The notes beneath the pieces are model-generated. The model worked only from the letters and a program-made list of their open reading frames with translations. It made no database searches and was not told where the DNA came from. A stretch of 64,000 nt of DNA from Actinoplanes sichuanensis (lineage in GTDB: Bacteria; Actinomycetota; Actinomycetes; Mycobacteriales; Micromonosporaceae). Of the stretch, positions 1 through 15,753 are shown one piece after another. The first letter of the stretch is position 1. Each line of letters starts with the position of its first letter. The DNA lies in the NCBI RefSeq assembly GCF_033097365.1, contig NZ_AP028461.1, forward strand, positions 2,728,001-2,792,000. The letters are read 5' to 3'. A program made the translations under genes and the position numbers.

Positions 1-2
1 TG

Positions 3-1844: not shown

Positions 1845-1849
1845 GCCGC

Positions 1850-1886
1850 GACGGCCGCGGTCGTCGTGGTGACGACCGCGGCCGTC
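1850..1886 (+). terminator. Hairpin terminator after the rhamnosidase
   Basis: A perfect 16-bp inverted repeat (1850-1865 and 1871-1886) with the 5-nt loop GTGGT starts five bases after the rhamnosidase stop. There is no T-tract, as is usual for actinobacterial terminators. Confidence 0.8.
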
Positions 1887-2112
1887 TGCACACGTATGGC
1901 GAACGGATGGCGTACGTGTCAACGGCGTGGCCGATGATCGGAGGACCACAGGTGCAGTCGCACTCCGGTTCGGTAGGGGCACGGGGCCCAACCGCGGCGG
2001 AGGCCGGTGACCGGGGCGGGGTTCGTCCACCGGACGACCCCGCCCCGGAGCACTGTGTCGCAAAACCACCATAAGATCGACTTTCGGTGGCTTCGAAGTT
2101 AGCCTGGCCGCA

Positions 2113-5100
2113 ATGCCATCCGAGACTGTCCACTATCGAATCCTGGGCAATGTGGAAGTGCGGCTGAGCGGTGCGAACGTCGTCGTCGCCCGGCCGCGGC
2201 ACCGGGCTGTCCTGGGTTACCTGCTGCTCAACGCGGGCCGGGTCGTCACCGTCGAAGCCCTGGCCGACGCGATGTGGGGCGGGGCCGAGCCGGCGACCGC
2301 CCGGTCTCAGCTGCAGGCCGACATCTCCGCGATCCGTCGGGCCGGTGACGGCCGGTTGGCGCTGCTCAGCCACAGTGGCGGCTACCTGCTCGAAGCCGGG
2401 CCGGCCGACCTCGACTACCTGCGCTTCCAGGAGCTCACCGCACCGACCGGCGACCTCCCACCCGTCGACCGCGTCACGCGGCTGCGGGAGGCTCTCGCGC
2501 TGTGGCGCGGCCCGGCTCTAGCCGACGCCGCCGGCGCCTATGTGGCAACGGCCCGCCGCGCGCTGGGGGAGGAGCGGCTCGCCGCCTGGGAGGAGGTCTT
2601 CGACCTCGAGCTGCAGGCCGGCCGGCACCGCGAGATCGTCCCGGAGCTGGCCGGGATGGCCCGCGACGAGCCGACCCGGGAGCGGCTGTGGATCGCCCTG
2701 ATGACCGCGCTGCATCGGGGTGGCCGCCAGGCGGACGCGCTCGCCGCGGCCCGGGAGATGCGCCGGTTCCTCGCCGATGAGCACGGGCTGGAGCCCGGCA
2801 CGGCGTTCGTGACGGCGGAGCGGACCGTCCTGCAGGCCGTCGGAGCCGTCGAGGACGGCGAGAGCGGACCGCCCGCCCCGGTCTCCCCGGCCCCGGCGCT
2901 GCTGCCGTCCGCCGTCGGGGACTTCACCGGCCGCGCCGCCGAGGTCGCCTGGTTGGACGGCGTGCTCGCGCCGGGTGACGGGCCGCGTCCGGTCGTGACG
3001 ATCACCGGGATGGGCGGGGTCGGCAAGAGCACCCTGGCCGTGCATGCCGCCCACCGGGCCGCCCACGATCATCCGGACGGGCAGCTCTATGCCCGGCTGC
3101 ACGGCACCGACGCACATCCGGCCGAGCCGGGCGACGTGCTCGCCCGTTTCCTGCGGGCCCTCGGCATGGACGAGCGGGCCGTCCCGATCGATCTGACCGA
3201 ACGCGCCGACGTCTACCGCTCGCTGATGGCCGGGCGCCGGATTCTGGTGGTGCTGGACGACGCCGCCGACGAGGCGCAGATCCGGCCGCTGCTGCCCGGC
3301 GGCAACTCCTGCACCACGGTGGTGACCAGCCGCTCCGGGCTGGACGGGCTGGAGGGCGCCGAGCGCCTGCAGTTGGAGGTCTTCTCCGGTGAGGAGGCCG
3401 TGGCGTTCCTCGACCGGGTCGCCACCGCACACCGGGTGACCGACGATCCGGCGGAGAGCGCCGCGATCCTGCAGCTGGTCGGGCGCCTGCCGCTCGCCGT
3501 CCGGATCGTCGGCGCCCGCCTGCGGTCCCGCCCGGCCTGGCCGATGTCGCGCCTCACCCGGGCACTGCGCGACGAGCGCCGGCGTCTGGATCACCTGGTC
3601 GCGGGTGACCTGGCGGTGCGCACTTCGATCGCCGCCAGCTACCGGGCGATCGGCGAGCCCGCCCGGCGACTGGCCCGCCGGCTCAGCCTGTTCGCTCTGC
3701 CGGATCTCCCGTCGTGGCTGGCCGCTGTCGTCACCGGGACCTCCACCGCGGAGGCCGAGGACCTGCTCGAGGAGTTGGTCGACGCCCAGTTGCTGTTCGA
3801 CGCGGGCACCGACACCACCGGTGGCGGCCGCTACGGTTTCCATGACCTGGTTCTGCTCTACCTGCGTGAACGCGCCCGTGCCGAGGAACCGTCCGAGGGC
3901 GCCGAGGTGCTGAGCGCCGGCCTGGGCGGCTATCTGTGGCTCGCCCGCCGGATGAGCGAGCGGATCCCCGGCCCGTGTTACGCCGCGGTGCGGGGCGACG
4001 CCATCGAGGTGGCGGTCCCCGGGGCCGACGACCTGCCCGACCCGCTCGACTGGTTCGCGGGCGAACGGTTGTCGCTGCCCGCCGCGATCCGGCAGGCCTG
4101 CGACATCGGCGCGCTCGACGCGGCCTTCGAACTGGCCGGCTGCCTGGAGAAGTTCTTCGACATCCGGGGCGTCTACATCGACTGGCGGTCCACCAACGAC
4201 TACGTGCTCGCCGCCTGCCGGGCCGCCGGGCACCGCCTCGGTGAGGCCGTCATGTTGCGGGGCCTGATCGAGCTCTCCACCTGGCACGAGGCGGACCACC
4301 CGGGCGCGGCCATGGAGCGCATGCTCCGCGACGCCGACCACCTGTTCGAACTGTTCACCGAGGCGGGCCACGGTCCCGGCATGGCCGACGCGGCGGTGGA
4401 TCAGGCGTGGGCGCTGGCGGCGACCGGTGACTACGATCGGGCGGCCGCATGCGCCGACGCCGCGATCGTGCTGGCCGAACAGCACGAGCACCTCGGCGGT
4501 CAGTCCCGCGCCCACGTGGCCCGCGCCGTCGTCTACGGCGAGTCGCTGGCACTGCCGGAGGCCGAGCGGCACCTCACCATCGCGCTGCGGCTCGCCCGGC
4601 GGCTGGGCAACCAGCGTTACGTGGCGACCACCCTCCAGTTCATCGGCGTGTTGAACACCCGGGCCGGCCGTGCTGCCGAGGCGATCATCGCGTTGGACGA
4701 GTCGCTGCGGATCCTGCGGCGCTATCAGGACCGCTACGCCGAGGTGTTGACCCTGCTGACGCTGGCCCGGGCACACCTTCCGAAGCATCCGGCGCGGGCC
4801 TTCGCCACCGAGGCGCTGACCATCGCCCGCGAATACAACCTGCCGCATCACACCGCGGACGCCCTCGGTGTCCTCGGCGTGATCGAGTTGGCCGAGGGCA
4901 ACCACGATGCGGCGATCAAACATCTGGAGGCTTCGGTACGGCTGTGGCGGCGCCGTGGCTGGCCCGCGTTCCTCGCCGAGGCTCTGCGCAAACTCGGTGA
5001 CGCGCAGGCACGGGCCGACCCGAGCGCCGCCCGGCGAGCGTTCAGCGAGGCCCGCGACATTCACCAGCGCCTCGGCCACACCGACACCGCGGCGGAGTTG

Positions 5101-5142
5101 ACCACCCTGATCAGCGCCCTCGACCGCAGCGCCCGCTGCTGA
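2113..5142 (+). CDS. AfsR/SARP-type transcriptional regulator (BTAD, NB-ARC, TPR)
   Basis: This 1009-residue protein has the full AfsR-type layout. Residues 5-95 form an OmpR-like winged helix (YRILGNVEVRLSG; LGYLLLNAGRVVTVEALADA). Residues 96-245 are a BTAD bacterial transcriptional activation domain. An NB-ARC/STAND ATPase follows with Walker A GMGGVGKSTLA at about 298-308 and Walker B ILVVLDDA at about 376-383. The C-terminal 350 residues are TPR helices. Members activate secondary metabolism or other specialised genes after ATP and ligand input. No biosynthetic cluster adjoins, so the target is unknown. The ATG at 2113 starts just at the conserved head, but no clear ribosome binding site precedes it. 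Possible -10 elements lie in the AT-richer stretch 2061-2100. Confidence 0.93.
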   Translation: MPSETVHYRILGNVEVRLSGANVVVARPRHRAVLGYLLLNAGRVVTVEALADAMWGGAEPATARSQLQADISAIRRAGDGRLALLSHSGGYLLEAGPADLDYLRFQELTAPTGDLPPVDRVTRLREALALWRGPALADAAGAYVATARRALGEERLAAWEEVFDLELQAGRHREIVPELAGMARDEPTRERLWIALMTALHRGGRQADALAAAREMRRFLADEHGLEPGTAFVTAERTVLQAVGAVEDGESGPPAPVSPAPALLPSAVGDFTGRAAEVAWLDGVLAPGDGPRPVVTITGMGGVGKSTLAVHAAHRAAHDHPDGQLYARLHGTDAHPAEPGDVLARFLRALGMDERAVPIDLTERADVYRSLMAGRRILVVLDDAADEAQIRPLLPGGNSCTTVVTSRSGLDGLEGAERLQLEVFSGEEAVAFLDRVATAHRVTDDPAESAAILQLVGRLPLAVRIVGARLRSRPAWPMSRLTRALRDERRRLDHLVAGDLAVRTSIAASYRAIGEPARRLARRLSLFALPDLPSWLAAVVTGTSTAEAEDLLEELVDAQLLFDAGTDTTGGGRYGFHDLVLLYLRERARAEEPSEGAEVLSAGLGGYLWLARRMSERIPGPCYAAVRGDAIEVAVPGADDLPDPLDWFAGERLSLPAAIRQACDIGALDAAFELAGCLEKFFDIRGVYIDWRSTNDYVLAACRAAGHRLGEAVMLRGLIELSTWHEADHPGAAMERMLRDADHLFELFTEAGHGPGMADAAVDQAWALAATGDYDRAAACADAAIVLAEQHEHLGGQSRAHVARAVVYGESLALPEAERHLTIALRLARRLGNQRYVATTLQFIGVLNTRAGRAAEAIIALDESLRILRRYQDRYAEVLTLLTLARAHLPKHPARAFATEALTIAREYNLPHHTADALGVLGVIELAEGNHDAAIKHLEASVRLWRRRGWPAFLAEALRKLGDAQARADPSAARRAFSEARDIHQRLGHTDTAAELTTLISALDRSARC

Positions 5143-5159
5143 CCGGCCCGCGAACGAAG

Positions 5160-5180
5160 CATCCGGGGTTGCCCCGCATG
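5160..5180. terminator. Short hairpin between convergent genes
   Basis: The sequence CATCCGGGGTTGCCCCGCATG forms a 5-bp GC stem on a 3-nt loop, extended by three more pairs beyond one mismatch. It lies between the AfsR-like gene and the convergent membrane-protein gene and could serve both. Confidence 0.45.
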
Positions 5181-5208
5181 ACCGGCGACGGCCGATGACG
5201 CGCCGACG

Positions 5209-5925
5209 TCAACTGACCGCCACCAACCAGGTGAACAGGACGGCCGGAATGCTGAGGTACAGCGACATCAGGAGATCGCCGCGGCGTTCCTTCTTGAAGA
5301 GATCCGCCAAGGCGTCCAGATCCTCGACGGTCGTGTTGCCGTCGTCGGAAGTCGTGGCCTCCAGGCGTCGAACTCCATCCGTTCCGATGCGTAAGGTCCC
5401 GGCGGCGACGATTGGAAGATCACCGCGAACGTGGAAACTCTCCGATGCGCGTATTCCCCAGGAATCGCTTTCTTCGACGTAGCTGTGTTCTGCCATGGGC
5501 CGGCCGGCGTAAAGTGCTTTGCGGGCGATTTCCAGAGATATCTCCAGCTGTCGTCCGTCGTGATAGATGGCCAGGGTGCCGTGTTCCGTCCAGTCTTTTT
5601 CCATTTCCGGAGGGATGTCTCGATGGCCGGTCGAACCGGTGCGGGACTTCCACCAGACCAGGTCGTGGCGGCTGGACGTGCCCGAAGCGGCGGTGTGGCC
5701 GAACACCATGACGGGTATGCCCTCCGGGGCTTCGCCGACTTCCGCCACGGTCAGTAAAGGTCGTTGAGCCAGCCGGCGCTTCTGCGCCGCGGAAAACAGC
5801 AGCGTCACCGGGCCTATGGCGGCGGCGAACCAAAACAATAGGGCGATGAGGGCGAAACAGGACAAAATGGCGAAGGAGGAGTCGCTCTTCTCGGTGATCG
5901 CCTCAAAGAGACCTCTGCCCGTCAC
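5209..5925 (-). CDS. Membrane protein with two terminal TM helices, GIDE-like middle
   Basis: The protein has 238 residues. A hydrophobic segment lies near the N terminus (FAILSCFALIALLFWFAAAIGPVTLLF, about residues 17-43, quoted here only as a landmark stretch) and a second one sits at the extreme C terminus. The soluble middle begins LLTVAEVGEAPEGIPVMVFG, which recalls the GIDE/MULAN-type membrane domain; that assignment is tentative. The GTG at 5925 is chosen because the reading frame upstream of it runs into the divergent kinase gene. Its start lies only nine bases from the kinase ATG, so the two genes must have overlapping or internal promoters. Function is unknown. Confidence 0.7.
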   Translation of the reverse strand: MTGRGLFEAITEKSDSSFAILSCFALIALLFWFAAAIGPVTLLFSAAQKRRLAQRPLLTVAEVGEAPEGIPVMVFGHTAASGTSSRHDLVWWKSRTGSTGHRDIPPEMEKDWTEHGTLAIYHDGRQLEISLEIARKALYAGRPMAEHSYVEESDSWGIRASESFHVRGDLPIVAAGTLRIGTDGVRRLEATTSDDGNTTVEDLDALADLFKKERRGDLLMSLYLSIPAVLFTWLVAVS

Positions 5926-5934
5926 GATTCCAGT

Positions 5935-7367
5935 ATGGACCGCCGGGGAGTGGTCGCCGGCCGTTACCGTCTGGTCCGGGAATTGGGGCGCGGCGGCATG
6001 GGCGCCGTGTGGCACGCCCACGACGAACTTCTCGCGCGTGACGTGGCGGTGAAGGAAGTCCACCTGCTGGGCGCGGCGTCCGACGGGGTCGATCCGGTCA
6101 CGCCGCGCGTACTGCGTGAGGCCCGGGCCGCCGCCCAGCTCAAGCATCCGGCGATCATCACCGTGCATGACGTCGTCGTCGACAGCGGACGGCCGTGGAT
6201 CGTGATGGAGCTGGTGGGTGGACGTTCGCTGAGCCAGATCGTCGACGACGACGGTGCGGTGCCCGAGCAGGGAGCCGCACTGATCGGGCTACGGGTTCTC
6301 GAGGCGCTCCGGGTCGCGCACCAGCAGGGCGTCCTGCACCGGGACGTGAAACCACCGAACATCCTGCTCGACGGTGACCGGGTGGTCTTGACCGATTTCG
6401 GGATCTCCGCGATCGACGGAGCGGCCGGCGGCTGACCGCGGAGTCCGCAGCACGGTCCCTGACAGAGATCGCTTTCCCGGTCACGGCATCAGGGTCGCGT
6501 TCACGGTCGCGGTGGGCACTGCGACGGCGCCCCCGGCCCGAGGGCGTGAGCATGCCGGCGACACGGCCCGCCCCGCCGGGCGACGAGACCGACGTCCCGG
6601 TCGACGGCGTCGCACCCCCGGTCGAGCCGGACGTGGTGGCAGAGGCGCCGGCCGCGCGCAGCCGGAGAACGTCGTGGATCGCCGGTTCGGTGGTCCTCGG
6701 ACTGCTGGTGGTCGGGGCCTCTGCGGGAGAGTTGCTGGCCAGGACACATCGCGGTCCGGACGGCGAGGCGGTCTCCACCCCTGGCACGAACTCGGCGAGC
6801 CGGGTTCCGGCCTCCGGGTCCGTACCGCCGTCGCCGCCGTTGACCATCCCGTCGCCGCCGGCCGGTTTCAAGACCGTCGACTATCGAGACACGCTCACGA
6901 TCGCCGTGCCGCAGAAATGGCTGGGCGGCAACGACAGCTGGTCGAGCCCGGACGAACGTCCCCACCCGTGGGTGCACTTGATATTCATCCAGGACACGGT
7001 GTGTGCCGAAGTGTCGGCGGCAACCTACTTGACCGAGCGGGAACAGGGCACCAAGCAGTACCACGCCCACCACCGGATCCGTCTGACCGACATCGACGCG
7101 CCGGTGGGCGGGACCAGCGCGGCCGAGTGGGAATACACGACCACGAGCACCCACTACTCCCAAGGCGGCTACGGGCGCTACATCACGAGGGCGATCACCC
7201 TCGCCAATGGCGATCTCTACCTGTTCAGCGTGTCGATGGACGCAGATTCGCGGACGGAATTGAACCGTGAATGGGCGCAGATGAAACCGACCCTGACCCG
7301 GATCCTGAACAGCGCGCGGCTCATCGGTGTGCCTTCACCGTCCATGCCGCCATCGAGAACCAACTGA
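5935..7367 (+). pseudogene. Ser/Thr protein kinase of PknB type, internally deleted and frameshifted
   Basis: Residues 1-166 (5935-6435) form a normal kinase N-lobe and catalytic loop: glycine loop LGRGGMGAVW, the lysine in VAVKEV, catalytic HRDVKPPN, and LTDFGISAIDG. A TGA then stops the frame at 6433. Read one frame over, from about 6420, the DNA continues without a stop as RRLTAESAARSLTEIA, which looks like the closing helix of a kinase domain. It then runs through a Pro-rich linker, a transmembrane helix (WIAGSVVLGLLVVGASAG) and an extracellular domain ending at 7367. The activation loop and most of the C-lobe are missing. I infer a deletion of roughly 100 codons that also shifted the frame. 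The downstream part could still be translated from GTG 6546 as a 273-residue membrane protein. Confidence 0.75.
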
Positions 7368-7417
7368 GGAGGCCGCCATCCGAGCGTGGATCACCTACGA
7401 AAACGCCCACCGGGACC

Positions 7418-7834
7418 TCAGTCGCCGATGCGGCGCACGACCGTGGCGAGGATGTGGGTGATCGGGATGAAGCCCAGGTGCCGCGAGTCGAGGCTCTGCG
7501 CCCGGTTGTCGCCGAGCACCGCGACGTGGCCGTGCGGCACGACGGCGGCTGCCATCCCGTCCGGGGCGGCGTCGTCCGCGACCGCCGCGATCCGTTTGAC
7601 CAGCACCGGCCCGTCGGAGGATCCCGGCACCCCATGCGGGCGCGGGTTGCGGAACACCACCACGTCGCCGCGCCGAGGTGTGGCCGTACGCCGGCGGCGG
7701 GCGATCAGCCGGTCGCCGTCGCGGTAGGTCGGCTGCATGCTCGGGCCGCGGACGACGGCCACGAGTACGGCGGTTCGAATCCACAGTGCACCGGCCCCGG
7801 CCAGTGCGAGCACCGCGGCGGCGGCGATCAGCAA
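7418..7834 (-). CDS. Short S26-family (type I) signal peptidase
   Basis: The protein has 138 residues. An N-terminal hydrophobic helix (residues 1-28) is followed by the S26 boxes: GPSMQPT with catalytic Ser32, GDVVVFRNP, VLVKRIAAV with catalytic Lys80, and LGDNRAQSLDSRHLGF. It is shorter than a housekeeping signal peptidase and has only one membrane anchor. The TTG at 7834 is supported by GGAGG six bases upstream. It lies on the same strand just after a small cysteine-containing peptide gene and an ABC exporter. I infer that it trims the exported peptide after its AEA motif. A general signal peptidase paralogue is the alternative. Confidence 0.88.
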   Translation of the reverse strand: MLIAAAAVLALAGAGALWIRTAVLVAVVRGPSMQPTYRDGDRLIARRRRTATPRRGDVVVFRNPRPHGVPGSSDGPVLVKRIAAVADDAAPDGMAAAVVPHGHVAVLGDNRAQSLDSRHLGFIPITHILATVVRRIGD

Positions 7835-7860
7835 AGCGGTCCTCCGTCTGACGAGGAAGT

Positions 7861-7890
7861 CCTGCCGCCGAGTGGTCGCCCGGCGGCAGG
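7861..7890 (-). terminator. Hairpin upstream of the signal peptidase gene
   Basis: A perfect 10-bp stem (CCTGCCGCCG with CGGCGGCAGG) encloses a 10-nt loop. It follows a TAG (7900-7902) that closes a short orphan reading frame, and precedes the signal peptidase ribosome binding site. Confidence 0.55.
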
Positions 7891-7899
7891 AACAACACC

Positions 7900-7968
7900 C
7901 TACGTGGAGCAGCCGCAGGCGACGTGGGTGACGCGGTCACCGTCGCGAGCAGACTGGCCGGCGCGGGT
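7900..7968 (-). other. Orphan 22-codon frame ending CGCST, possible peptide remnant
   Basis: On the minus strand an open frame without any start codon ends VTHVACGCST-stop, directly ahead of the 7861-7890 hairpin. It sits between two hairpins, beside a real small-peptide gene. It could be the tail of a decayed second precursor. It may also be chance, because the frame is short and no start is visible. Confidence 0.2.
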
Positions 7969-7995
7969 TCACCCGCCGATCGGCGGGTGAACCCG
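7964..7995 (-). terminator. 32-bp perfect palindrome after the peptide gene
   Basis: The 32 bases 7964-7995 are a perfect palindrome centred between 7979 and 7980. It begins six bases after the stop of the peptide gene. A strong partial terminator here would let the peptide be made in excess over the downstream signal peptidase. A protein-binding site is the alternative. Confidence 0.65.
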
Positions 7996-8000
7996 GGCGA

Positions 8001-8204
8001 CTACTGCCGGGGGCAGCTGTAGGTCACCTTCGCCGGGCAGGAGTCGTAGTTCCTGGTGATCTTGTACCGGACGACGCCGTCGGCGCCGGCGCAGTAGCCG
8101 GCTGGGGTGCGCACCGTGCTGATCAGGACGCAGGCCGCCTCGGCCTCCGTCGTGGGGGCCACCATCGCCAGCAGACGGTCGGCAAGCTTGCCCATCATGC
8201 TCAT
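8001..8204 (-). CDS. Small cysteine-containing peptide, probable exported precursor
   Basis: The product is a 67-residue peptide. The ATG at 8204 has GGAGGGAG about six bases upstream, which decides the start. Residues 1-23 form an amphipathic, charged leader (GKLADRLLAMVAP) that lacks the hydrophobic core of a Sec signal and ends TEAEA. The remaining 44 residues hold four cysteines (25, 38, 56, 64) in a basic, Tyr/Thr-rich sequence ending in SCPRQ. An ABC exporter is immediately upstream on the same strand and a small signal peptidase follows. I infer a leader-directed export substrate, possibly disulfide-bonded or otherwise modified. No modification enzyme is encoded next to it. I do not recognise the family. 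Confidence 0.75.
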   Translation of the reverse strand: MSMMGKLADRLLAMVAPTTEAEAACVLISTVRTPAGYCAGADGVVRYKITRNYDSCPAKVTYSCPRQ

Positions 8205-8254
8205 CTGTTGCTCCCTCCAGTGCACCGGCCGGTGGGTTTCCCGGCCGGTATCTC

Positions 8255-10168
8255 TCACCCGCCGGTCGACGGGTGAAGCTCGGTGCGCGCATCGGGCGAT
8301 GTGTAGCCGGATGCCTGCAAGGTGAAGAGCCCGGCGTAGGTGCCACCGGCCGCCAGCAGGGTGTCGTGGTCACCCAGTTCGGTGACCACCCCGTCGGACA
8401 GCACGGCGATGGTGTCGGCGTCGCGTACGGTGCTCAGCCGGTGCGAGATGAGAACGCTGGTGGATCCCTCGCGCAGCGCCCGCAGCCGGGTGTGCACCTC
8501 GTGTTCGGCGTCGGCGTCGAGTCCGGCGCTCGGCTCGTCGAGGATCAGCAGGTCCCGGTCGGCGCGCATGAACGCGCGCGCCAGAGCCAGTCGCTGCCAC
8601 TGCCCGCCGGAGAGCTGCACGCCGCTCGACGCCTCCCCGTCGAGGACCTCCTCCGGGGAGAAGAATCTGGTCAGCAGGGTGTCGTAGCCGCGGGGCAGCT
8701 TCTCGACGGTCACGTGGCAGCCGGCTCGCTCGGCGGTGGCCTCGATCGCCGAGCGGTCGTCCAATCGGGCGATGTCGCCGAGCCCGATGTTCTCGGCCGC
8801 GCTCAGGTCGTACGCCATGAAGTCCTGAAAGACGGCGCCGAGGCGTTCGCGCAGTTCCTCGACCGGGAATCGGCGTAGGTCGACGCCGTCCCACAGCACC
8901 GCGCCGCGGGTCGGGTCGTAGAGCCGGCACAGGAGTTTGACGATCGTGCTCTTGCCCGCGCCGTTGAGCCCGACCAACGCCGTCGCCCGGCCGGCCCGGA
9001 TGGTGAGGTTGACGCCCTGAAGGATCCAGGGCAGCGACGGGCCGTAGCGGAACCACACGTCGCGCAGCTCGATGGCGTCCCGCAACGACGGCACGGGCAG
9101 CAACGGCAGACCCTCCAACGGTGCCAGGTCGGCCGGCGCCCGTACCACCTGCTGGAAATGCGTGAAGATCAACAGTGCCTGATGGGTACGCGCGACGTTG
9201 CCGATGATCGAGGCGAGCAGGTTCTGGACCCCGGCGGTCGCCGCCGCGAAGACCACGATGTCGCCGACGCCCAACCGACCCGAGCGGGCGGAGAGCGCCG
9301 CCCACACCAGCCCGCCGCCGGCCACCACGGCGCCGAGCCCGGTCAGTGCCGACTGCATCCGCAACTCTCGCAGGTCCAGTCCGCGCATTCCCCGGTTGAT
9401 CTTCCGCAGCTCGGTCGTCATCCGGACGGCGAACAGGTCGCTGAGCCCGTAGATGCGGACCTCCTTGGCCGCCGTGACCGACGAGATCAGGTCCGCGTAG
9501 AACAGTTCGCGCCGGTTGGCGTGCCCGAGTTGCAGCATCATCGCCGCCCGGGCCCGCGACAGGGTCAGCTCGGCTCGGACGGTGGGAATCGCCGCGACGG
9601 CCACCACCACCGCCATCCAGGGGGCCATGCTCGCCAACGTGACGACGAAGCCGACGATGGTGACCGCGGACTGCGCGATGGTCAACCCGTTCGCGGTGAC
9701 CTGAGCGGGGGTCGCCGGGCCGTCGGAGACGGCCAGTTGCAGGCGGTCCTGGAAGTCCGGATCCTCGAAGCGGCCGAGCCCACCGAAACCGCCGATCGCC
9801 CGGTAGAGCCGGGCCCGCCCGGCGAGCTGGGTACGCCGACTCAGTTCGGCGTCGACGAAGTTGCCGACCGCCGGCAGTAGTGCGCCGGCCAGGGTGGCCC
9901 CGGCCAGCGCCAGCACCACGGTCAGCACCGCCGTGGTCGCCCCGCCGTCGACCAGCAGGTCGAGCAGCAGCTTGGTCAGCCAGGCCACCGCCACCGGGGC
10001 CACGCCACCGGCCAGCGCGACGCCGATCCGTGCCGCGAGCAGCCCTCGGGAGGCCTGCCAGACCAGCGCGAAGGCGGCCTTCAGCAGGGCGAGGGTGCCG
10101 TGGGCGCCGGAGTCTGCCCTGCTCGTGCGGCCGCCGCGACCGGTAGGTCGTCCCCAGCGAACCGCCAC
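8255..10168 (-). CDS. ABC exporter, fused permease and ATPase
   Basis: The 637-residue half-transporter has a six-helix membrane domain (about residues 25-320). Its ATPase carries Walker A GLNGAGKSTIVKLL, signature LSGGQWQRLALARA, Walker B DLLILDEPSAGLD and switch ISHRLSTVRDAD. No C39 peptidase domain precedes the membrane part, so leader removal would need a separate protease; the S26 peptidase two genes downstream is the obvious candidate. GTG 10168 has GGGGGA about eight bases upstream. The next gene, 50 bases on, encodes the small peptide, suggesting that this pump is dedicated to it. A lipid or drug exporter of the MsbA type is the alternative. Confidence 0.88.
   Translation of the reverse strand: MAVRWGRPTGRGGRTSRADSGAHGTLALLKAAFALVWQASRGLLAARIGVALAGGVAPVAVAWLTKLLLDLLVDGGATTAVLTVVLALAGATLAGALLPAVGNFVDAELSRRTQLAGRARLYRAIGGFGGLGRFEDPDFQDRLQLAVSDGPATPAQVTANGLTIAQSAVTIVGFVVTLASMAPWMAVVVAVAAIPTVRAELTLSRARAAMMLQLGHANRRELFYADLISSVTAAKEVRIYGLSDLFAVRMTTELRKINRGMRGLDLRELRMQSALTGLGAVVAGGGLVWAALSARSGRLGVGDIVVFAAATAGVQNLLASIIGNVARTHQALLIFTHFQQVVRAPADLAPLEGLPLLPVPSLRDAIELRDVWFRYGPSLPWILQGVNLTIRAGRATALVGLNGAGKSTIVKLLCRLYDPTRGAVLWDGVDLRRFPVEELRERLGAVFQDFMAYDLSAAENIGLGDIARLDDRSAIEATAERAGCHVTVEKLPRGYDTLLTRFFSPEEVLDGEASSGVQLSGGQWQRLALARAFMRADRDLLILDEPSAGLDADAEHEVHTRLRALREGSTSVLISHRLSTVRDADTIAVLSDGVVTELGDHDTLLAAGGTYAGLFTLQASGYTSPDARTELHPSTGG
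8256..8275. repeat. Second copy of the palindrome flanking the peptide gene
   Basis: CACCCGCCGGTCGACGGGTG differs from the core of the 7964-7995 palindrome (7970-7989) at only two of 20 positions and is itself nearly palindromic. It overlaps the last codons and stop of the ABC exporter gene, so the two copies bracket the peptide gene. Confidence 0.6.
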
Positions 10169-10302
10169 CTGTGTCCCCCGTACCGCTGCGCTGATCGAGA
10201 ACCTGTCGAGTTCCGTACGCTAGGCACCGCGACTCTTCATCGGCTCTCGATTCGCTCTCGGCCGCTGACCGTGCGTGTCGATGGTCGTCTTTCTCGTCGT
10301 CG

Positions 10303-10821
10303 CTACATCAGCCCGGCGAGCTTGTAGAGCACCAGCGACCCGGCGACGGCGACGTTGAGGCTGGACCCGGTGCCGACCATCGGGATCTCCACGGCGCCGT
10401 CGAGAAGGTCGAGCGCCTCGGGCGGGATGCCGGTCGCCTCGTGGCCGAGCACCATGACGGTCCGGCGCCGGGCCGGAGGCAGGTCGGCGAGCCGGATCGC
10501 CTCGTCGGCCAGTTCCACCCCGAGGACGCTCGTTCCGGCCTTGCGCTCGTCGGCAAGCCAGCGGAGGGGACTGCCGACGCGGTGGACGCAGGCGGGTCGG
10601 CGTAACGTGTTGCCGCGGGCGAGGGCCCGGTCCACCCAGCCATGCGGGGGCACCGCGAGGCAGGCCCCGACCGCGTCACAGGTCCGCAGCAGCGTGCCGA
10701 GATTGGCGTCGTGCATGGGCCACAGGGGTGCCGCGACGAGATGTCCCCAGCATTCGTGCCGGCGAGGACGGCGGACCGAACGGATCTCCCGCGCGGTCCG
10801 GACCCGGATCGCGGGGCTCAC
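10303..10821 (-). CDS. SpoU/TrmH-family RNA 2'-O-methyltransferase
   Basis: The protein is about 172 residues if GTG 10821 is used. The family motifs are clear: N-x-G-x-x-x-R in DANLGTLLRTCDAVG, then MVLGHEATGIPPEALDLLD, and the knot motif IPMVGTGSSLNVAVAGSLVLY. These form the SAM-binding trefoil knot of enzymes that methylate ribose in rRNA or tRNA. The extra N-terminal substrate domain of longer SpoU members is absent. No good ribosome binding site is visible, and the frame is open further upstream, so the start is uncertain. Confidence 0.85.
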   Translation of the reverse strand: MSPAIRVRTAREIRSVRRPRRHECWGHLVAAPLWPMHDANLGTLLRTCDAVGACLAVPPHGWVDRALARGNTLRRPACVHRVGSPLRWLADERKAGTSVLGVELADEAIRLADLPPARRRTVMVLGHEATGIPPEALDLLDGAVEIPMVGTGSSLNVAVAGSLVLYKLAGLM

Positions 10822-10964
10822 CGGAGGGGAGCAGAGGCGCTCCAGCTTTCGAAGGTCATGTGAGACGTGCTTCTCGGCGCACGCGAGCCATCGACGAACG
10901 ATGTGTGATTCCGAGCGACAGGATACCGCGTCTTCCACCGGCACGCGCTGCGCGACCCGGTGCG

Positions 10965-11582
10965 CTACCGGGCGCGCACCCGCTCGTACAGCCCGTCGGC
11001 GGCGGCCGTGAAGACGGCGACGTAGTCGATGCGGTCGGGCAGCGCGGACCACTGGTCCCGGATGCCGTCGTTGAGGGCGAGCAGTTCCAGGACGAGCTGC
11101 TGCGGATCGGTTCCCTCGGCGATCTCCCCGGCGGCGATGCGCTCCTGGACGAACGGGACCAGCGTGTCCAGGGCCGCCTCCAGGTTGCGGCCGGCGCGAC
11201 CCTCCACCGGATGACCGGCGATGCGGGAGGCGCCGGTGAGCATGACACGGAATCGCAGCAGGTCGGGTTCCCGGGCGGCGAGGCGTACCACCGCGATGAA
11301 CTCGTCGAACAGGGCTCGGACGGACTCGGTGGTCAGCTTGATCGTCTGATAGACCTCTTCGCGGCGCTCGACGACGGCCATGAACAGGTCGTACTTGGTT
11401 CCGAAGTGGTGCAGCACCCCGGCGTCGGTCACCCCGGCCGACCGGGCGATGTCGGAGACCCGGGCGCCGTCGTAGCCCTTACGGCCGAACTCCGCGGTGG
11501 CGGCGGTGAGGATCCGGGCTCGTCGTGCGTCGCCGCGAGCGAGTCGATGGTCGCCGTCGGGGGCACGCTCTGAGCTTTCCAC
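10965..11582 (-). CDS. TetR-family repressor
   Basis: The 205-residue protein has an N-terminal TetR helix-turn-helix (residues 20-66: ILTAATAEFGRKGYDGARVS and AGVTDAGVLHHFGTKYDLF), followed by an all-helical ligand domain. It is divergent from a phosphatase gene 112 bp away, with an 18-bp perfect palindrome midway between the two starts. It therefore most likely represses both itself and the phosphatase until an unknown ligand binds. The GTG start at 11582 lacks a strong ribosome binding site. Confidence 0.92.
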   Translation of the reverse strand: MESSERAPDGDHRLARGDARRARILTAATAEFGRKGYDGARVSDIARSAGVTDAGVLHHFGTKYDLFMAVVERREEVYQTIKLTTESVRALFDEFIAVVRLAAREPDLLRFRVMLTGASRIAGHPVEGRAGRNLEAALDTLVPFVQERIAAGEIAEGTDPQQLVLELLALNDGIRDQWSALPDRIDYVAVFTAAADGLYERVRAR

Positions 11583-11637
11583 TCGGAAACCCTACGAGAT
11601 GCCGCCGCCGGGTGACGGCGGGCGGTGCCGTCAGCTA

Positions 11638-11655
11638 ACTTAGTCGCGACTAAGT
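11638..11655. promoter_or_regulatory. 18-bp palindromic operator for the TetR regulator
   Basis: ACTTAGTCGCGACTAAGT is a perfect inverted repeat in the middle of the 112-bp gap between the divergent TetR and phosphatase genes. Its size and symmetry match a TetR dimer site. Confidence 0.75.
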
Positions 11656-11694
11656 CGACGGGTCGATCATGCATCCAGAGCAGAAGGGGGTCGC

Positions 11695-12468
11695 GTGAGC
11701 GCGATCATCGCCGGGACCTACAACTCCAGGGACACCGGAGGCATCCCGCTCACGGCGGGCGGTTCGACCCGCACCGGAGTGCTCTACCGGTCCGACGCCC
11801 TCGCCGGCACCACCGACGACGGGATCAAAACCCTGACGGCGAGCCCGATCGGTACGATCGTCGACTTCCGCACCGACATGGAGAAGACCGGCCTACCGAA
11901 CCGGGTCGGCACGCGGCGCCGGTTCACCGCCGTGCAACTGCCGCTGCTCGACGGGGCGTTCACCGGCATGCCGTCGCCGGCCGACCTCGACGAGGCCACG
12001 ATGCGAGAGCTGTTCGTGCGTATCCCCACACTGGCCGACCTCTATCTCCGGATGCTCGGCACGGCCGCCGAGACCTTCGCCGAGGTCGCCCGACTCGTCG
12101 CCCGGCCCACCGACGACACCTACAACGGGGTGCTCGTGCACTGCACGGCCGGCAAGGACCGTACCGGCGTGGCCGTCGCCCTGTTGCTCGACGCCGCGGG
12201 AGCCGACCGCGACGCCGTCATCGCCGACTACGCGCTCAGTGAGACGAATCTCGTCGGTGACTGGGCCGATCTGATGCTGGCCCGCCTGAAGGCCTGGGGA
12301 GTGCCGCCCCTCCCGGCGATCACCGACCTGGTCACCGCCACCCCGCCGGAGGCGATCAAGGCCGCTTTCGCCTGGCTCGACGAGCGCGGCGGCTCGGCCC
12401 GCTACCTGTGCGACGGGGGACTTTCCGACGACGACCTCGAAGCCCTGCGCGAGCGCATCGCCGGCTGA
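11695..12468 (+). CDS. Protein tyrosine/Ser phosphatase, Y_phosphatase3 type
   Basis: The 257-residue protein carries the phosphatase signature HCTAGKDRTG, the Cx5R loop with nucleophile Cys150 and Arg156. The N terminus has NSRDTGGIPLTAGG, typical of actinobacterial and mycobacterial PtpB-like enzymes. It should dephosphorylate phosphotyrosine, phosphoserine or phosphoinositide substrates. GTG 11695 follows AGAAGGGGG. Control by the divergent TetR through the 11638-11655 palindrome is likely. The 3' end overlaps the convergent GNAT gene by 67 bp. Confidence 0.9.
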   Translation: MSAIIAGTYNSRDTGGIPLTAGGSTRTGVLYRSDALAGTTDDGIKTLTASPIGTIVDFRTDMEKTGLPNRVGTRRRFTAVQLPLLDGAFTGMPSPADLDEATMRELFVRIPTLADLYLRMLGTAAETFAEVARLVARPTDDTYNGVLVHCTAGKDRTGVAVALLLDAAGADRDAVIADYALSETNLVGDWADLMLARLKAWGVPPLPAITDLVTATPPEAIKAAFAWLDERGGSARYLCDGGLSDDDLEALRERIAG

Positions 12469-13379
12469 ATCGCCGGTAGCGGACCCTGCATCTTCAACCA
12501 GGCGGGCTGAATCCGGTAGCCGAGCTTCTCGTTGACCCGTCGCATCCCGTGATTGACACCCTGGGTGTAGCTGACCAGCTCGGGAACGCCCGCCGCCGAC
12601 GCCCACGCCAGCTGCCGGAGCTTGAGGTGAGTGGCGATGCCGCGGCCGCGATGGGACCGGGCGACCGTGGTGAGCCCGTGCTCGTCCTTGAGCATCCCCG
12701 CGTAGCCGACGATCCGGCCGTCCTCGATCGCCACGAAGGAACCGTCGGGAACCGTCGCCTCCTCCTCGATCCAGTCCTCGACCGTCATCGACAGCGGGGA
12801 GGGCAGGGGGATGTCGGCACAACCGTCGGCGCCGACCGCGTGCCAGGCGGCCTCCAGCAACTCCGGGCGTTCGGCGATGGTCACCACCTCGATGCCGGGC
12901 AGCGCCGCCGGTGGGGCCTCGTGCGAGATGCGGCGCCGGGCCTCCACCTCGCGGGCCACCTCGGCCAGGCCGCGGCGCGCGGCGAAGGCCACACCGTCGG
13001 CCGACTGCTCGTCCACGGTGCAGAACACGAACGGCCGTCCGAAGGTCCGGGCATGAACCGTGAGACGGTCCCACAATGCCCGGCCGATGCCCGCGCGCCG
13101 GGCGGCCGGATCGACGTAGATCTGAACGGTGACCGAGTCGGCGAGGTCCGAGCGTGCGGCCAGGCCGCAGCCCACATCCCGCCACAGCAGCATCAGCCGG
13201 TCGGGTTCACGCCGCGGCGGAACGGGCCACTCCCGCGGCGACGCGGCGAGCCGGATCCGCGCGAACAACTGCAGATCGGCGTCGGATTCGGCGACCCGAA
13301 TGCTTCCGGTCGCCTTCGCATCACCTTCCATCTGCCCGATCATGCCGTACGGGTACGGCTGCCCGGAATGCCACATCAT
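12402..13379 (-). CDS. GNAT acetyltransferase with two GNAT domains
   Basis: The 325-residue protein contains two tandem GNAT folds. The first has the acetyl-CoA motif VDPAARRAGIGRALWDRL (about residues 90-107). The second has VARSHRGRGIATHLKLRQL (about 240-260) and the typical family ending NEKLGYRIQPAW. Substrate is not evident. ATG 13379 is the first of several possible starts; the ATGs about 12 and 16 codons in are alternatives because none has a clear ribosome binding site. The C-terminal 20 residues are Ser/Arg-rich and overlap the end of the convergent phosphatase gene. Confidence 0.87.
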   Translation of the reverse strand: MMWHSGQPYPYGMIGQMEGDAKATGSIRVAESDADLQLFARIRLAASPREWPVPPRREPDRLMLLWRDVGCGLAARSDLADSVTVQIYVDPAARRAGIGRALWDRLTVHARTFGRPFVFCTVDEQSADGVAFAARRGLAEVAREVEARRRISHEAPPAALPGIEVVTIAERPELLEAAWHAVGADGCADIPLPSPLSMTVEDWIEEEATVPDGSFVAIEDGRIVGYAGMLKDEHGLTTVARSHRGRGIATHLKLRQLAWASAAGVPELVSYTQGVNHGMRRVNEKLGYRIQPAWLKMQGPLPAIQPAMRSRRASRSSSESPPSHR

Positions 13380-13409
13380 CGGTGGTGCAAGGCTGAGCCC
13401 ACCGGCGAA

Positions 13410-13451
13410 CGCGGATGGGGTGGGTGCCTGCCGACACCCACCCCATCCGCG
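13410..13451 (-). terminator. 17-bp hairpin terminator
   Basis: A perfect 17-bp stem (13410-13426 with 13435-13451) on the 8-nt loop CCTGCCGA lies 12 bases after the stop of the small YtxH-like gene. It should end transcription of the envelope cluster to its right. Confidence 0.85.
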
Positions 13452-13463
13452 TGACGATCGTGG

Positions 13464-13790
13464 TCACCGCAGCGGGTCGCCGCCGGCCGGTGACGGCTTG
13501 GTGCGAGCCGGCCTCGGCGCCGACGGCGCGGGTGACCCCGGCGTGGTGACAGTCGTGGCGGCGACGGTGGACTCGCTGCCGGTGACCGTGTCGTCGTGGG
13601 GGAGGGCCGCGGCGATCTTCTGCCGGCCGGTGCCCAGTAGCGCCTTCGCCCGCTCCTGGGCCTGGATCGTGGTGGGGTGGTTGCTCGCCTTGCGTGCGGC
13701 CGCGGCGATCTGCTCGTACTTCTCCCGGCCGGCGCGGCTGCCGAGTACGTAACCGGCGGCGAACCCGACGGCCAGCTTCAGAACCTTCAT
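13464..13790 (-). CDS. Small YtxH-like membrane-associated protein
   Basis: The 108-residue protein starts MKVLKLAVGFAAGYVLGSRA: a short hydrophobic segment ending in G-x-x-x-G spacing and followed by a charged helix (GREKYEQIAAAARKA), as in YtxH-like envelope stress proteins. The C-terminal half is low-complexity Pro/Thr/Ala. ATG 13790 has AGAAG nearby and fits the family start. It forms a same-strand cluster with the DUF3618 and holin-like genes, a common actinobacterial grouping. Confidence 0.75.
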   Translation of the reverse strand: MKVLKLAVGFAAGYVLGSRAGREKYEQIAAAARKASNHPTTIQAQERAKALLGTGRQKIAAALPHDDTVTGSESTVAATTVTTPGSPAPSAPRPARTKPSPAGGDPLR

Positions 13791-13871
13791 GATGTGTCTT
13801 CTCCGATTCTCGTGGTCAGTCGGGCCGTACACCCGTCGCGCTGGTTTCGGCGAACGCGAAGAACACGCCTC

Positions 13872-14249
13872 TCACCTGCGGCTTCCGCGGACGATCAGGA
13901 TCACGCCGGCGGCGGCCAGGGCCACCGCGGCGACCGGCACGGCGGTGCTGCGAACCTTCGGATCGCGGGCGGCCGAGGCGGCCTTCGACGTGGCGGTACG
14001 GGCGTGCTGCTGTACCGGCGCCGTACCGGAAACGATCTTGTCCTTGACCGCCTCGGCGGTCGCCGCGACCTTGTCGCCAGTGGCGGCCAGCTGTTCGCGG
14101 CCGCGTTCGGCCAGTTCCGCGGCCGACTGCTTGGCCCGGGCCTTGACGTCGGTCTTGGCCGCCAGCGCCTCCACGGTGGAGCCGAGATCGGCGCGGGTCT
14201 GGGCGATCTCACTTCGTAGCTGCTGCGGATCGTTCTGTGGGGTGCTCAT
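13872..14249 (-). CDS. DUF3618 membrane protein
   Basis: The 125-residue protein begins with the DUF3618 signature DPQQLRSEIAQTRADLGSTVEALAAKTDVKARAK. A long charged helix follows and then one C-terminal transmembrane helix (AVPVAAVALAAAGVILIV) with a basic tail. Its ATG overlaps the TGA of the upstream holin-like gene by four bases, so the two are translated together. The cellular role is not established; the family is tied to envelope maintenance by context only. Confidence 0.85.
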   Translation of the reverse strand: MSTPQNDPQQLRSEIAQTRADLGSTVEALAAKTDVKARAKQSAAELAERGREQLAATGDKVAATAEAVKDKIVSGTAPVQQHARTATSKAASAARDPKVRSTAVPVAAVALAAAGVILIVRGSRR

Positions 14250-14677
14250 CCATGCCGTCCTCTCCGGGCTGCGGTCTTGATGGTCTGCACGTCGGCCTGC
14301 ACACCGGCGACGGCGTCGCCGGGCACCGGCGGGGTGGCGGCCTTCAGCTTCTGCCGGCCGAGCAGTGCGGCCACCGCTGCGGCGGCGAACACGACCACCA
14401 TCACGACCAGCACGGCCAGCCACAGTGGCCAGACCAGGTCCAGCAGGACCACGGCCAGGGTCACCAGCAGGGCCAAGCCGAACCAGCCCAGAACCGCGGA
14501 CCCGCCGAGCAGGCCGCCTCCGACGCCGGCCCGCTTGCCCTTCTCGGCCAGTTCGAGCTTGGCGAGGGCGAGCTCGTCGCGTACCAGTGTGGAGATCTGC
14601 GCCGCGGCCTGACTCACCAGATCCGCCGTCGAGGCCGATCCGGTCGGCCCACCGCCATGCGCCGCGTTCGTTGTCAC
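14246..14677 (-). CDS. Phage-holin-like membrane protein (PF07332 type)
   Basis: The 143-residue protein has the helix ADLVSQAAAQISTLVRDELALAKLELAEKGKR, followed by two transmembrane helices (residues 56-80 and 86-112), the pattern of the Actinobacteriota holin superfamily. GTG 14677 is chosen because AAGGAGG ends eight bases upstream. It is the first gene of the three-gene envelope cluster. Confidence 0.85.
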   Translation of the reverse strand: MTTNAAHGGGPTGSASTADLVSQAAAQISTLVRDELALAKLELAEKGKRAGVGGGLLGGSAVLGWFGLALLVTLAVVLLDLVWPLWLAVLVVMVVVFAAAAVAALLGRQKLKAATPPVPGDAVAGVQADVQTIKTAARRGRHG

Positions 14678-14813
14678 AGCACTCACCTCCTTGCTCAGCG
14701 GTAACAACTGCGTGCCCATGGACCGAACTGCCAAAACGTCTGAGCGACTGTCCGGAATTCGACTGGCCCGGCTTGGGTCCGACGATTCGACGGCGTCGTC
14801 TGCCGGGCTGGAT

Positions 14814-15752
14814 TCACCGCGGGGTGAGGGCGTCCACCTTTCGCCGGAGTCGACGGCAGAACGGTCCGATCATGGCCGGGTCGTCGATGAACATGGAGGG
14901 TTTGAAACAGATGGTGGTGAAACCCTGGTCCAGCTGGCGGGGAAGGTCGGCGAGCGCCGCGTCGATGTCACCGGTGTCGTCCTCGCCGCCGAAGGTGGCC
15001 CGGATGCCACCGATCAGTTCCAGGTCGCCCGGATCGCGGCCGGCCTCGGTGAACGCGGTCCGGACCGCCGTGAGGTCGGTGTCGGTGAGCGGCCCGAACG
15101 GGTTGAGCCCCGCGCCGTAGCGGACGAGCCGGCGCAGGAGCGGCGGGTGCACACCCTGTCCACCGAACCACAGCGGTGGCCCGCCGGGCCGCCATGGCTG
15201 GGGCTCGATCCAGACGTCGTCGAACTGGAAGTGGGCGCCGTGGTGGCTGATCGGCCCGGGCGTCCACGCGGCCCGCAGGATCTCCAGTTGCTCGTCCATG
15301 ATTCGCCCTCGCCGGTGGAACGGCACCCCGAGCGCGTCGTACTCGTCCCGGTGCCAGCTCACCGAGGGCAGCACCACCAGTCGCCCCTCGGACAACAGGT
15401 CCAGGGTCGCGAGTTCCTTCGCGAGGTGCAGTGGATGACGCAGCGGTGCGATGATCGCGCCGGCGACGATCCGCAGTGTGCTGGTGGCCTGGGCGATCGC
15501 GGCCATCAGGACGGTCGAGCTGGGCCAGGGCATGGCCGGATCCTGGTTGCCGGGTGCGGCGTAGTCACGCGGATTGGCCATCACACCGTACGCGCCGGCG
15601 CCCGGACCGAGCACGATGTGCTCGCTGAGCATGACGCCGTCGATGCCCGCCTGCTCGGCCTCGACGGCGAGGCGGATCAGAGCACGCAGGTCGCGGGGCG
15701 GTACGAGGGTCCAGTTCTCGGTCAGCACCATCAGCAGCTTCGGGGCCGGCAT
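14814..15752 (-). CDS. LLM-class (luciferase-like) oxidoreductase, probably F420-dependent
   Basis: The 312-residue TIM-barrel protein shows family motifs: LIRLAVEAEQAGIDGVMLSEH, STLRIVAGAIIAPLRHPLHLAKELATLDLLSEGRL, WHRDEYDALGVPF, and PPLWFGG. The family uses reduced flavin or F420; in this type of organism F420 is the better guess. The ATG lies one base after the stop of the amidohydrolase gene, so it is the last gene of the ABC importer operon. A catabolic reduction or oxygenation of the imported compound is inferred. Confidence 0.88.
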   Translation of the reverse strand: MPAPKLLMVLTENWTLVPPRDLRALIRLAVEAEQAGIDGVMLSEHIVLGPGAGAYGVMANPRDYAAPGNQDPAMPWPSSTVLMAAIAQATSTLRIVAGAIIAPLRHPLHLAKELATLDLLSEGRLVVLPSVSWHRDEYDALGVPFHRRGRIMDEQLEILRAAWTPGPISHHGAHFQFDDVWIEPQPWRPGGPPLWFGGQGVHPPLLRRLVRYGAGLNPFGPLTDTDLTAVRTAFTEAGRDPGDLELIGGIRATFGGEDDTGDIDAALADLPRQLDQGFTTICFKPSMFIDDPAMIGPFCRRLRRKVDALTPR

Positions 15753-15753
15753 G

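Follow-up and report, generated by a model that had tools for sequence, protein, structure and literature searches.

Genome mining with decRiPPter in 2020 yielded three candidate RiPP families of Streptomyces with mauE and Cys-rich precursors, one of which also contained mauD, and the strict filter of that study required a transporter, a peptidase, and a regulator (PMC7794033). As described there, these families resemble the module family analyzed here, which has MauE and a Cys-rich precursor and whose leader is carried by Streptomyces genomes. In contrast, their precursors have at least eight Cys residues versus four in that of the window (the 64,000-nucleotide stretch of Actinoplanes sichuanensis DNA analyzed in this study), and they contain mauE, whereas the window cassette has neither MauE nor a redoxin (PMC7794033). 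The main text of the decRiPPter study does not use the terms "redoxin", "S26", or "signal peptidase", and its section 7 names no common leader. This kind of system was therefore glimpsed before in that study, and the earlier note, which regarded the cassette as undescribed, was right only in part, because mauE candidate families, compared here by description, were flagged in 2020.

Two other peptide systems were compared by description. TMcin, reported in a preprint (PMC13252029), is described as sharing with the window family leader removal, a dedicated DsbA-like disulfide-forming protein, and an ABC transporter, but it has a single disulfide, a transmembrane-helix precursor, and an S2P-type protease, and it occurs in Staphylococcus. 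Actinomycesin-type defensins are also Cys-rich, occur in actinobacteria and myxobacteria, and in many cases have a non-classical leader; the Actinomyces defensin gene lies between two ABC transporter genes (PMC8819291). They differ in that they were found by similarity to eukaryotic defensins and that cleavage in actinobacteria is mostly at acidic residues, and the passages covered of that report describe no MauE/redoxin/S26 module with them (PMC8819291).

The leader of nickel superoxide dismutase (NiSOD) is likewise short and ends with P-x4-[ST]-A or a similar motif just before HCDLPCG. It is removed by a small S26-like protease. Kinship with the NiSOD leader was considered owing to the weak scores of the S26 proteins against TIGR02754: the window protein scored 38.1 bits and ten relatives 31.7 to 40.4 bits, against a cut-off of 63.25, and assignment as a nickel-SOD maturation protease was rejected. 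The leader HMM scored 10 of 12 NiSOD leaders, at −0.5 to 6.4, which was not convincing; one of them (L264, 6.4) narrowly exceeded the highest score among 960 shuffled leaders (6.0). The main text of a leader-protease review contains neither "S26" nor "signal peptidase".

With a probability of about 0.7, we consider the window cassette to be a reduced version of a module that is widespread in actinobacteria and serves exported peptides with disulfide bonds.

Genes of the window cassette

The features of the cassette are listed in Table 1. The precursor gene has GGAGG nine bases 5′ of its ATG, and the GC content at its third codon positions is 0.96. The leader has no long hydrophobic run, its longest uncharged run being nine residues; a Sec-secreted peptide was rejected since there is no hydrophobic signal-peptide core (best 15-mer Kyte-Doolittle mean, 0.9). 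Structure prediction placed a helix at residues 4–23 with low confidence and three strands in the core, with pLDDT of 73–89 per block of ten residues.

Table 1. Positions of the cassette features within the window
Feature	Position	Strand	Description or basis
S26 signal-peptidase-like protease	7418..7834	minus	138 aa, TTG start, Ser32/Lys80
Strong hairpin	7957..8001	minus	directly after precursor stop, ahead of S26
Precursor peptide gene	8001..8204, stop included	minus	67 aa, ATG at 8204, family alignment
Core	8004..8135	minus	44 residues, four Cys
Leader	8136..8204	minus	23 residues, MSMMGKLADRLLAMVAPTTEAEA, ends A-x-A
ABC exporter gene	8255..10168	minus	637 aa, Pfam ABC_tran 98.9 bits
Redoxin deletion scar	10124..10168	minus	blastn, alignment, translations
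Upstream block, probable promoter region	10169..10259	minus	common to L033 and L100

In a Pfam scan, the exporter scored 25.2 bits against ABC_membrane, under the cut-off of 28, and no peptidase C39 domain was listed. Across the 18 rows of an alignment, its Walker A, signature, and Walker B residues showed little or no variation. A double-glycine bacteriocin with a C39 exporter was rejected given the missing domain and a TIGR01193 score of 136 bits against a cut-off of 524, and a double-glycine leader type was rejected on the leader end, TEAEA rather than GG or GA. The protease scored 85 bits against Peptidase_S26 (PF10502) and 88.5 bits against TIGR02227 (cut-off, 47), and its dyad was kept in all 65 family S26 matches scoring above 60 bits. 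These analyses bear out what the earlier note had read from the sequence, namely a 67-residue precursor with a leader ending in AEA and a four-Cys core of 44 residues, an exporter without a C39 domain, and a short S26 peptidase with Ser32/Lys80.

Leader family and linked genes

The full module consists of a precursor, MauE, a CxxC redoxin, an exporter, and S26. The family pattern of the leader is L-[AG]-D-R-L-L ... P ... A-x-A. Homologous exporters seeded 28 of 60 loci (L031–L058); L060, with an exporter fragment, a redoxin, and a precursor, and L061, a contig-end fragment in which no leader was found, were left out. After HMM searches, a leader was accepted beside 25 of the 28 exporters: seven loci were HMM seeds, 12 scored at E ≤0.06, five at E 0.23–0.98 were accepted by their place, A-x-A, and Cys-rich tail, and that of L055 was accepted by eye. 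Precursors of this kind are also present in at least six other genomes of the phylum of L055, and these six contain the full module. All 25 leaders, some of which rest on weak scores, trained a second HMM. The window leader matched with an E-value of 2e-11, yet it is itself a training row, and the independent support is the plain leader pattern, present in 9 of the 28 loci.

The leader HMMs gave no match in 32 remote ABC loci (L059, L062–L090, L094, and L095), many of which contain remote ABC ATPases that are not exporters; L094 and L095 are shorter than 5 kb and can show little. A first control with 55 loci had given two strong matches, L006 and L009, family members that had been fetched by a peptide query and are not among the 32; the next best matches had E-values of 0.29 and 0.99. 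The small gene is not a chance reading frame, since the same leader and a Cys-rich tail recur beside homologous exporters. The check proposed in the earlier note, conservation of the leader beside other exporter/S26 pairs, was positive. Among the three exporters without the leader, that of L053 has another Cys-rich reading frame beside it, and L034 and L035 carry a different precursor with three Cys residues, L034 together with an ATP-grasp enzyme.

Redoxin, S26, and MauE genes were found in 27, 23, and 15 of the 28 loci, respectively, and all of them together with a precursor in 12. In 44 further loci, ABC, redoxin, S26, and MauE genes were present in 38, 40, 39, and 38, respectively, and all four partners in 34; six had no exporter within 4.5 kb. 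Of these loci, 42 were reached via the precursor and two (L101 and L102) via the exporter, and the two sets overlap at least once, L132 being the contig of L056. Pfam searches with ten neighbor proteins identified eight as MauE and/or redoxin and one as ATP-grasp, with no match for the last. The CxxC motif was present in all 82 distinct redoxins. At least 20 of 67 Actinoplanes genomes and at least 33 of 246 in a sample of the genus Streptomyces had leader profile matches, both counts being lower bounds because only part of the first-look candidates was scored.

Loss of the redoxin gene

In L033 (from A. xinjiangensis), L100, L031, and L060, a redoxin gene lies directly upstream of the exporter gene, and in L100, the closest relative, MauE directly follows S26. 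Compared with both L033 and L100, the window lacks 482 bp between positions 10160 and 10161, leaving about the first three and the last dozen codons of the redoxin gene. The former ATG of the exporter, at about 10124–10126, now reads ACG, and the exporter frame opens with the GTG left over from the deleted redoxin gene. By blastn, 10156–10259 had 86% and 79% identity to L033 and L100, respectively, with no nucleotide match to either beyond the upstream block. Neither an HMM match to MauE nor a tblastn trace of the MauE of L100 was found in window positions 1–16000, and L033 has no MauE within its 13.9 kb. The cassette had been called a self-sufficient unit without a tailoring enzyme. It is not self-sufficient, and the lack of a tailoring enzyme is not supported as its ancestral state: L100 has both redoxin and MauE, homologous exporters have redoxin beside them in 27 of 28 cases and MauE in 15, and the window has lost most of its redoxin gene and bears no trace of MauE.

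Decay of the cassette, in which the peptide would no longer be matured properly after the loss of redoxin and MauE and the remaining genes would be relics, is unlikely. The deletion, the changed exporter start codon, and the absence of MauE are consistent with it, as are L032, a second Actinoplanes locus without redoxin, and L096, a paralogous cassette of the same genome in which the precursor is intact but the exporter survives only in fragments. However, the exporter frame of the window is intact, and the dN/dS values of the window against L033 and L100 (0.15 for the exporter with each and 0.20–0.23 for the precursor) are not above those between the two redoxin-bearing loci (0.16 and 0.44, respectively). 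Against the more distant L032, the values were 0.20 for the exporter and 0.70 for the precursor; that of S26, obtained against L100 only, was 0.19. The genome contains two other modules, L101 and L102, each with redoxin and MauE, which might act in trans for the window cassette.

Cysteine content and possible roles of the cores

The core sequences vary widely, and the number of Cys residues was even in all 101 distinct precursors, counted from a fixed position and leaving out precursors with a leader E-value of 0.05 or above. With an automatic cut, 77 of 80 were even, the three odd ones arising where the cut fell behind a Cys. The number was also even in all 42 core clusters, which have 41 different spacings. 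Control reading frames with at least four Cys residues were even in 87 cases and odd in 30, so that the null is not one half; at this rate, 42 even clusters would have a probability of about 4e-6 if the clusters are independent. At least eight Cys residues were present in 40 of the 101 precursors. Even numbers despite such varied cores point to disulfides. The proposal of a likely disulfide peptide with a dedicated exporter and S26 and a leader ending in A-x-A is supported.

A short, Cys-rich core could instead bind metal in the manner of metallothionein, with even Cys numbers as paired ligands, but this is very improbable considering the 41 spacings and the exporter, S26, and CxxC redoxin/MauE partners, which are in keeping with extracellular oxidation.

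The variability of the cores is more suggestive of a putative secreted weapon of a bacteriocin-like kind than of a housekeeping factor; no immunity gene was identified. The peptide could instead be a secreted signal read by a regulator, for example one of the BTAD type. BTAD-type regulators lie within 4.5 kb in 12 of the 28 and 24 of the 44 loci; L100 has one downstream on the opposite strand, and the window has one at 2113–5142 in the same orientation as the cassette. We regard a signal as quite unlikely: the regulators of the window and L100 share only 33% identity, a gap of 2.3 kb with a broken kinase gene separates that of the window from S26, none is present in the 13.9 kb of L033, and 41 spacings would be unusual for one receptor type.

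Proposed maturation and its implications

For a disulfide-bonded exported peptide, the amphipathic leader would direct the precursor to the ABC exporter of its own cassette. Once outside, the core would fold and its cysteines pair, normally aided by the membrane-anchored redoxin with MauE as its redox partner, and S26 would cut after A-x-A, releasing the free 44-residue core. Because redoxin is deleted and MauE absent in the window, its two disulfides would have to form with the help of redoxin and MauE encoded by other modules of this genome or by spontaneous oxidation. Since both genes are naturally knocked out in the window copy, it can show directly whether a core with two disulfides requires them.

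More tentatively, at slightly under even odds, actinobacteria and myxobacteria may share a single large peptide class, with one leader and an ABC exporter/MauE/redoxin/S26 module serving dozens of unrelated disulfide-folded cores and S26 acting as the dedicated leader protease. If so, the class would be the bacterial equivalent of cystine-rich, venom-like scaffolds, and many actinobacterial genomes would encode disulfide-rich peptides behind one recognizable leader. This would provide a simple handle for genome mining, define a pathway of oxidation and cleavage, and supply stable scaffolds for peptides.

Like the redoxin deletion, the hairpin between the precursor and S26 genes was absent from the earlier note. 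Its 83 nt had a folding energy of −46.5 kcal/mol (z = −3.65), and the equivalent site in six other Actinoplanes loci had z-scores of −2.24 to −5.51. The hairpin is probably a terminator or attenuator.

Leader family beside homologous exporters

The three genes that the earlier note had proposed, encoding an ABC exporter, a cysteine-containing precursor, and an S26 signal peptidase, were found by sequence and domain profile checks to be real and correctly positioned in the genome, a single contig of 12.1 Mb. The precursor gene has a Shine-Dalgarno sequence and a strong codon-position bias. In the window, and likewise in six further Actinoplanes loci (z −2.24 to −5.51), a strong hairpin lies 3′ of the precursor stop codon, an arrangement that would fit production of much precursor and little S26.

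The window precursor as sole query gave almost no matches. With the window exporter as query, homologous loci were found in which the exporter adjoins a small gene encoding the leader pattern followed by a cysteine-rich tail. Among these 28 exporter-seeded loci, the leader was recognized beside the exporter in nine by the plain pattern and in 25 after HMM searches and inspection, some on weak scores. It was not found in L034, L035, and L053; L053 has a different 8-Cys ORF in its stead. At less than about 40% identity to the window exporter, none of 32 loci showed the leader–exporter link. L034 and L035 contain MauE and redoxin (fused in L034) and another precursor of about 96 aa with three C-terminal cysteines, ending in NCGDCVTDD-CA. 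An MvdD-type ATP-grasp enzyme was detected in L034, the one of the two loci covered by that scan. These loci represent a sister system, perhaps a graspetide with a redox step.

Coordinates of the cassette and related features
Feature	Locus	Position (strand)	Remark
ABC exporter	window	8255-10168 (−)	
Precursor	window	8001-8204 (−)	67 aa
S26 peptidase	window	7418-7834 (−)	
BTAD-type regulator	window	2113-5142 (+)	large
Ser/Thr kinase gene, broken	window	5935-7367 (+)	adjoins cassette
kinase part	window	5935-6435 (+)	
downstream part	window	6546-7367 (+)	
MauE	L100	4966-5475	directly after S26
BTAD regulator	L100	1111-3867	
Exporter-clade member	L034	3640-5980	
Exporter-clade member	L035	3561-5860	
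Paralogous cassette	L096, own genome	C1:697000-710000	

Redox partners and even cysteine numbers

Pfam scanning identified eight of ten neighbour proteins as MauE (PF07291), a thioredoxin-like AhpC-TSA/redoxin protein, or both. The 28 exporter-seeded loci contained redoxin (27), precursor (25), S26 (23), MauE (15), and BTAD regulator (12) genes, and precursor, redoxin, S26, and MauE occurred together in 12. In 44 further loci, redoxin, S26, ABC, MauE, and BTAD genes were present in 40, 39, 38, 38, and 24, respectively, with the first four together in 34. All 82 distinct redoxins counted had a CxxC motif, and structure matches of one were solved thioredoxin-family proteins, including DsbF and ResA. 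The catalytic Ser and Lys were kept in 65/65 S26 matches counted.

The 101 distinct precursors, excluding those of L034 and L035 (other type, three Cys), had 4 (9), 6 (52), 8 (38), 10 (1), or 12 (1) cysteines C-terminal to the leader, and never an odd number. Control ORFs with four or more cysteines included 87 with even and 30 with odd counts, so the null expectation for an even count is near 0.74, not 0.5. Clustering of cores at 50% identity gave 42 clusters, all with even counts, in 41 different spacings. Leaders had a mean pairwise identity of 0.36 and cores one of 0.28 (5050 pairs), a modest difference. Cores of L134, L135, L137, L138, L140, L141, and L143 have the order C-C-CC-C-C, which is that of inhibitor cystine knots; they are at most candidates for that fold.

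PMC7794033 describes three candidate families that contain mauE homologues, mauD also being present in one of them; every family has a precursor with eight or more cysteines. The paper cites the idea of disulfide formation by MauE and suggests that these mauE/mauD genes modify RiPP precursors. "S26" and "signal peptidase" are absent from the main text of the leader-protease review PMC10885120. Within the mainly open-access literature covered by our searches, no paper was found to define this leader, its association with S26, or the rule of even cysteine numbers.

Loss of most of the redoxin gene and absence of MauE in the window cassette

The cassette common to the window, L033 (A. xinjiangensis), and L100 (the closest relative of the window copy) shows about 93% nucleotide identity. 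In L033 and L100 the common upstream block is separated from the exporter by a redoxin gene, which is also present in L031 and L060. The window retains approximately the first three and last dozen codons of this gene, with 482 bp absent relative to both L033 and L100. As we read the alignment, the exporter's own ATG is now ACG, and its frame would continue from the redoxin's GTG. L032 also lacks redoxin, and its scar looks different, so the gene was probably lost twice.

No trace of the L100 MauE was found in window positions 1-16000, and L033 has neither MauE nor a BTAD regulator within 13.9 kb. dN/dS against L033 and L100 gave no sign of relaxed selection on the window cassette. Profile searching found five precursors in the window's genome, and its modules L101 and L102 both have redoxin and MauE, so supply in trans is possible. 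The paralogous cassette L096 has an intact 4-Cys-type precursor and an exporter only as fragments.

Genomic surroundings and distribution

Nucleotide homology of the window with L033 and L100 ends at the cassette edges. The L100 genome (G021) has the cassette at 0.69 Mb and, at 6.09 Mb, a homologue of the gene that flanks the cassette in the window, which we take to be rRNA-methyltransferase-like; cassette location thus differs among related genomes. In two relatives (L244 and L245), about 5 kb separate a homologue of this gene from a full module whose precursor is different, and such modules may therefore use its neighbourhood as a landing spot. About 180 bp between the two kinase-gene parts are absent from the window; in a relative (L240, genome G371) they are joined in one 522-aa frame. 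BTAD-type regulators are common beside full modules; those of the window and L100 have the same orientation and are only 33% identical, and a tie of the former to the cassette would be tentative.

A profile built from 36 precursors matched at least 17/296 genomes at class level (E 1e-3) and, at E 1e-4, at least 20/67 of Actinoplanes, 33/246 of Streptomyces (genus of L058), and 7/146 of the phylum of L055 (a Corallococcus locus). Exporter, redoxin, and S26 were present at 18 of 20 match places inspected, 17 of these also with MauE; of the exceptions, L259 ends at a contig edge and L247 comprises redoxin and an exporter fragment only. L247 and L248 have contigs equal in length to those of L060 and L033, respectively, and are probably identical with these loci. 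L251-L256, from the Corallococcus phylum, have very short 6-Cys cores with the order C-CC-C-C-C, which in L253 and L255 stand in tandem.
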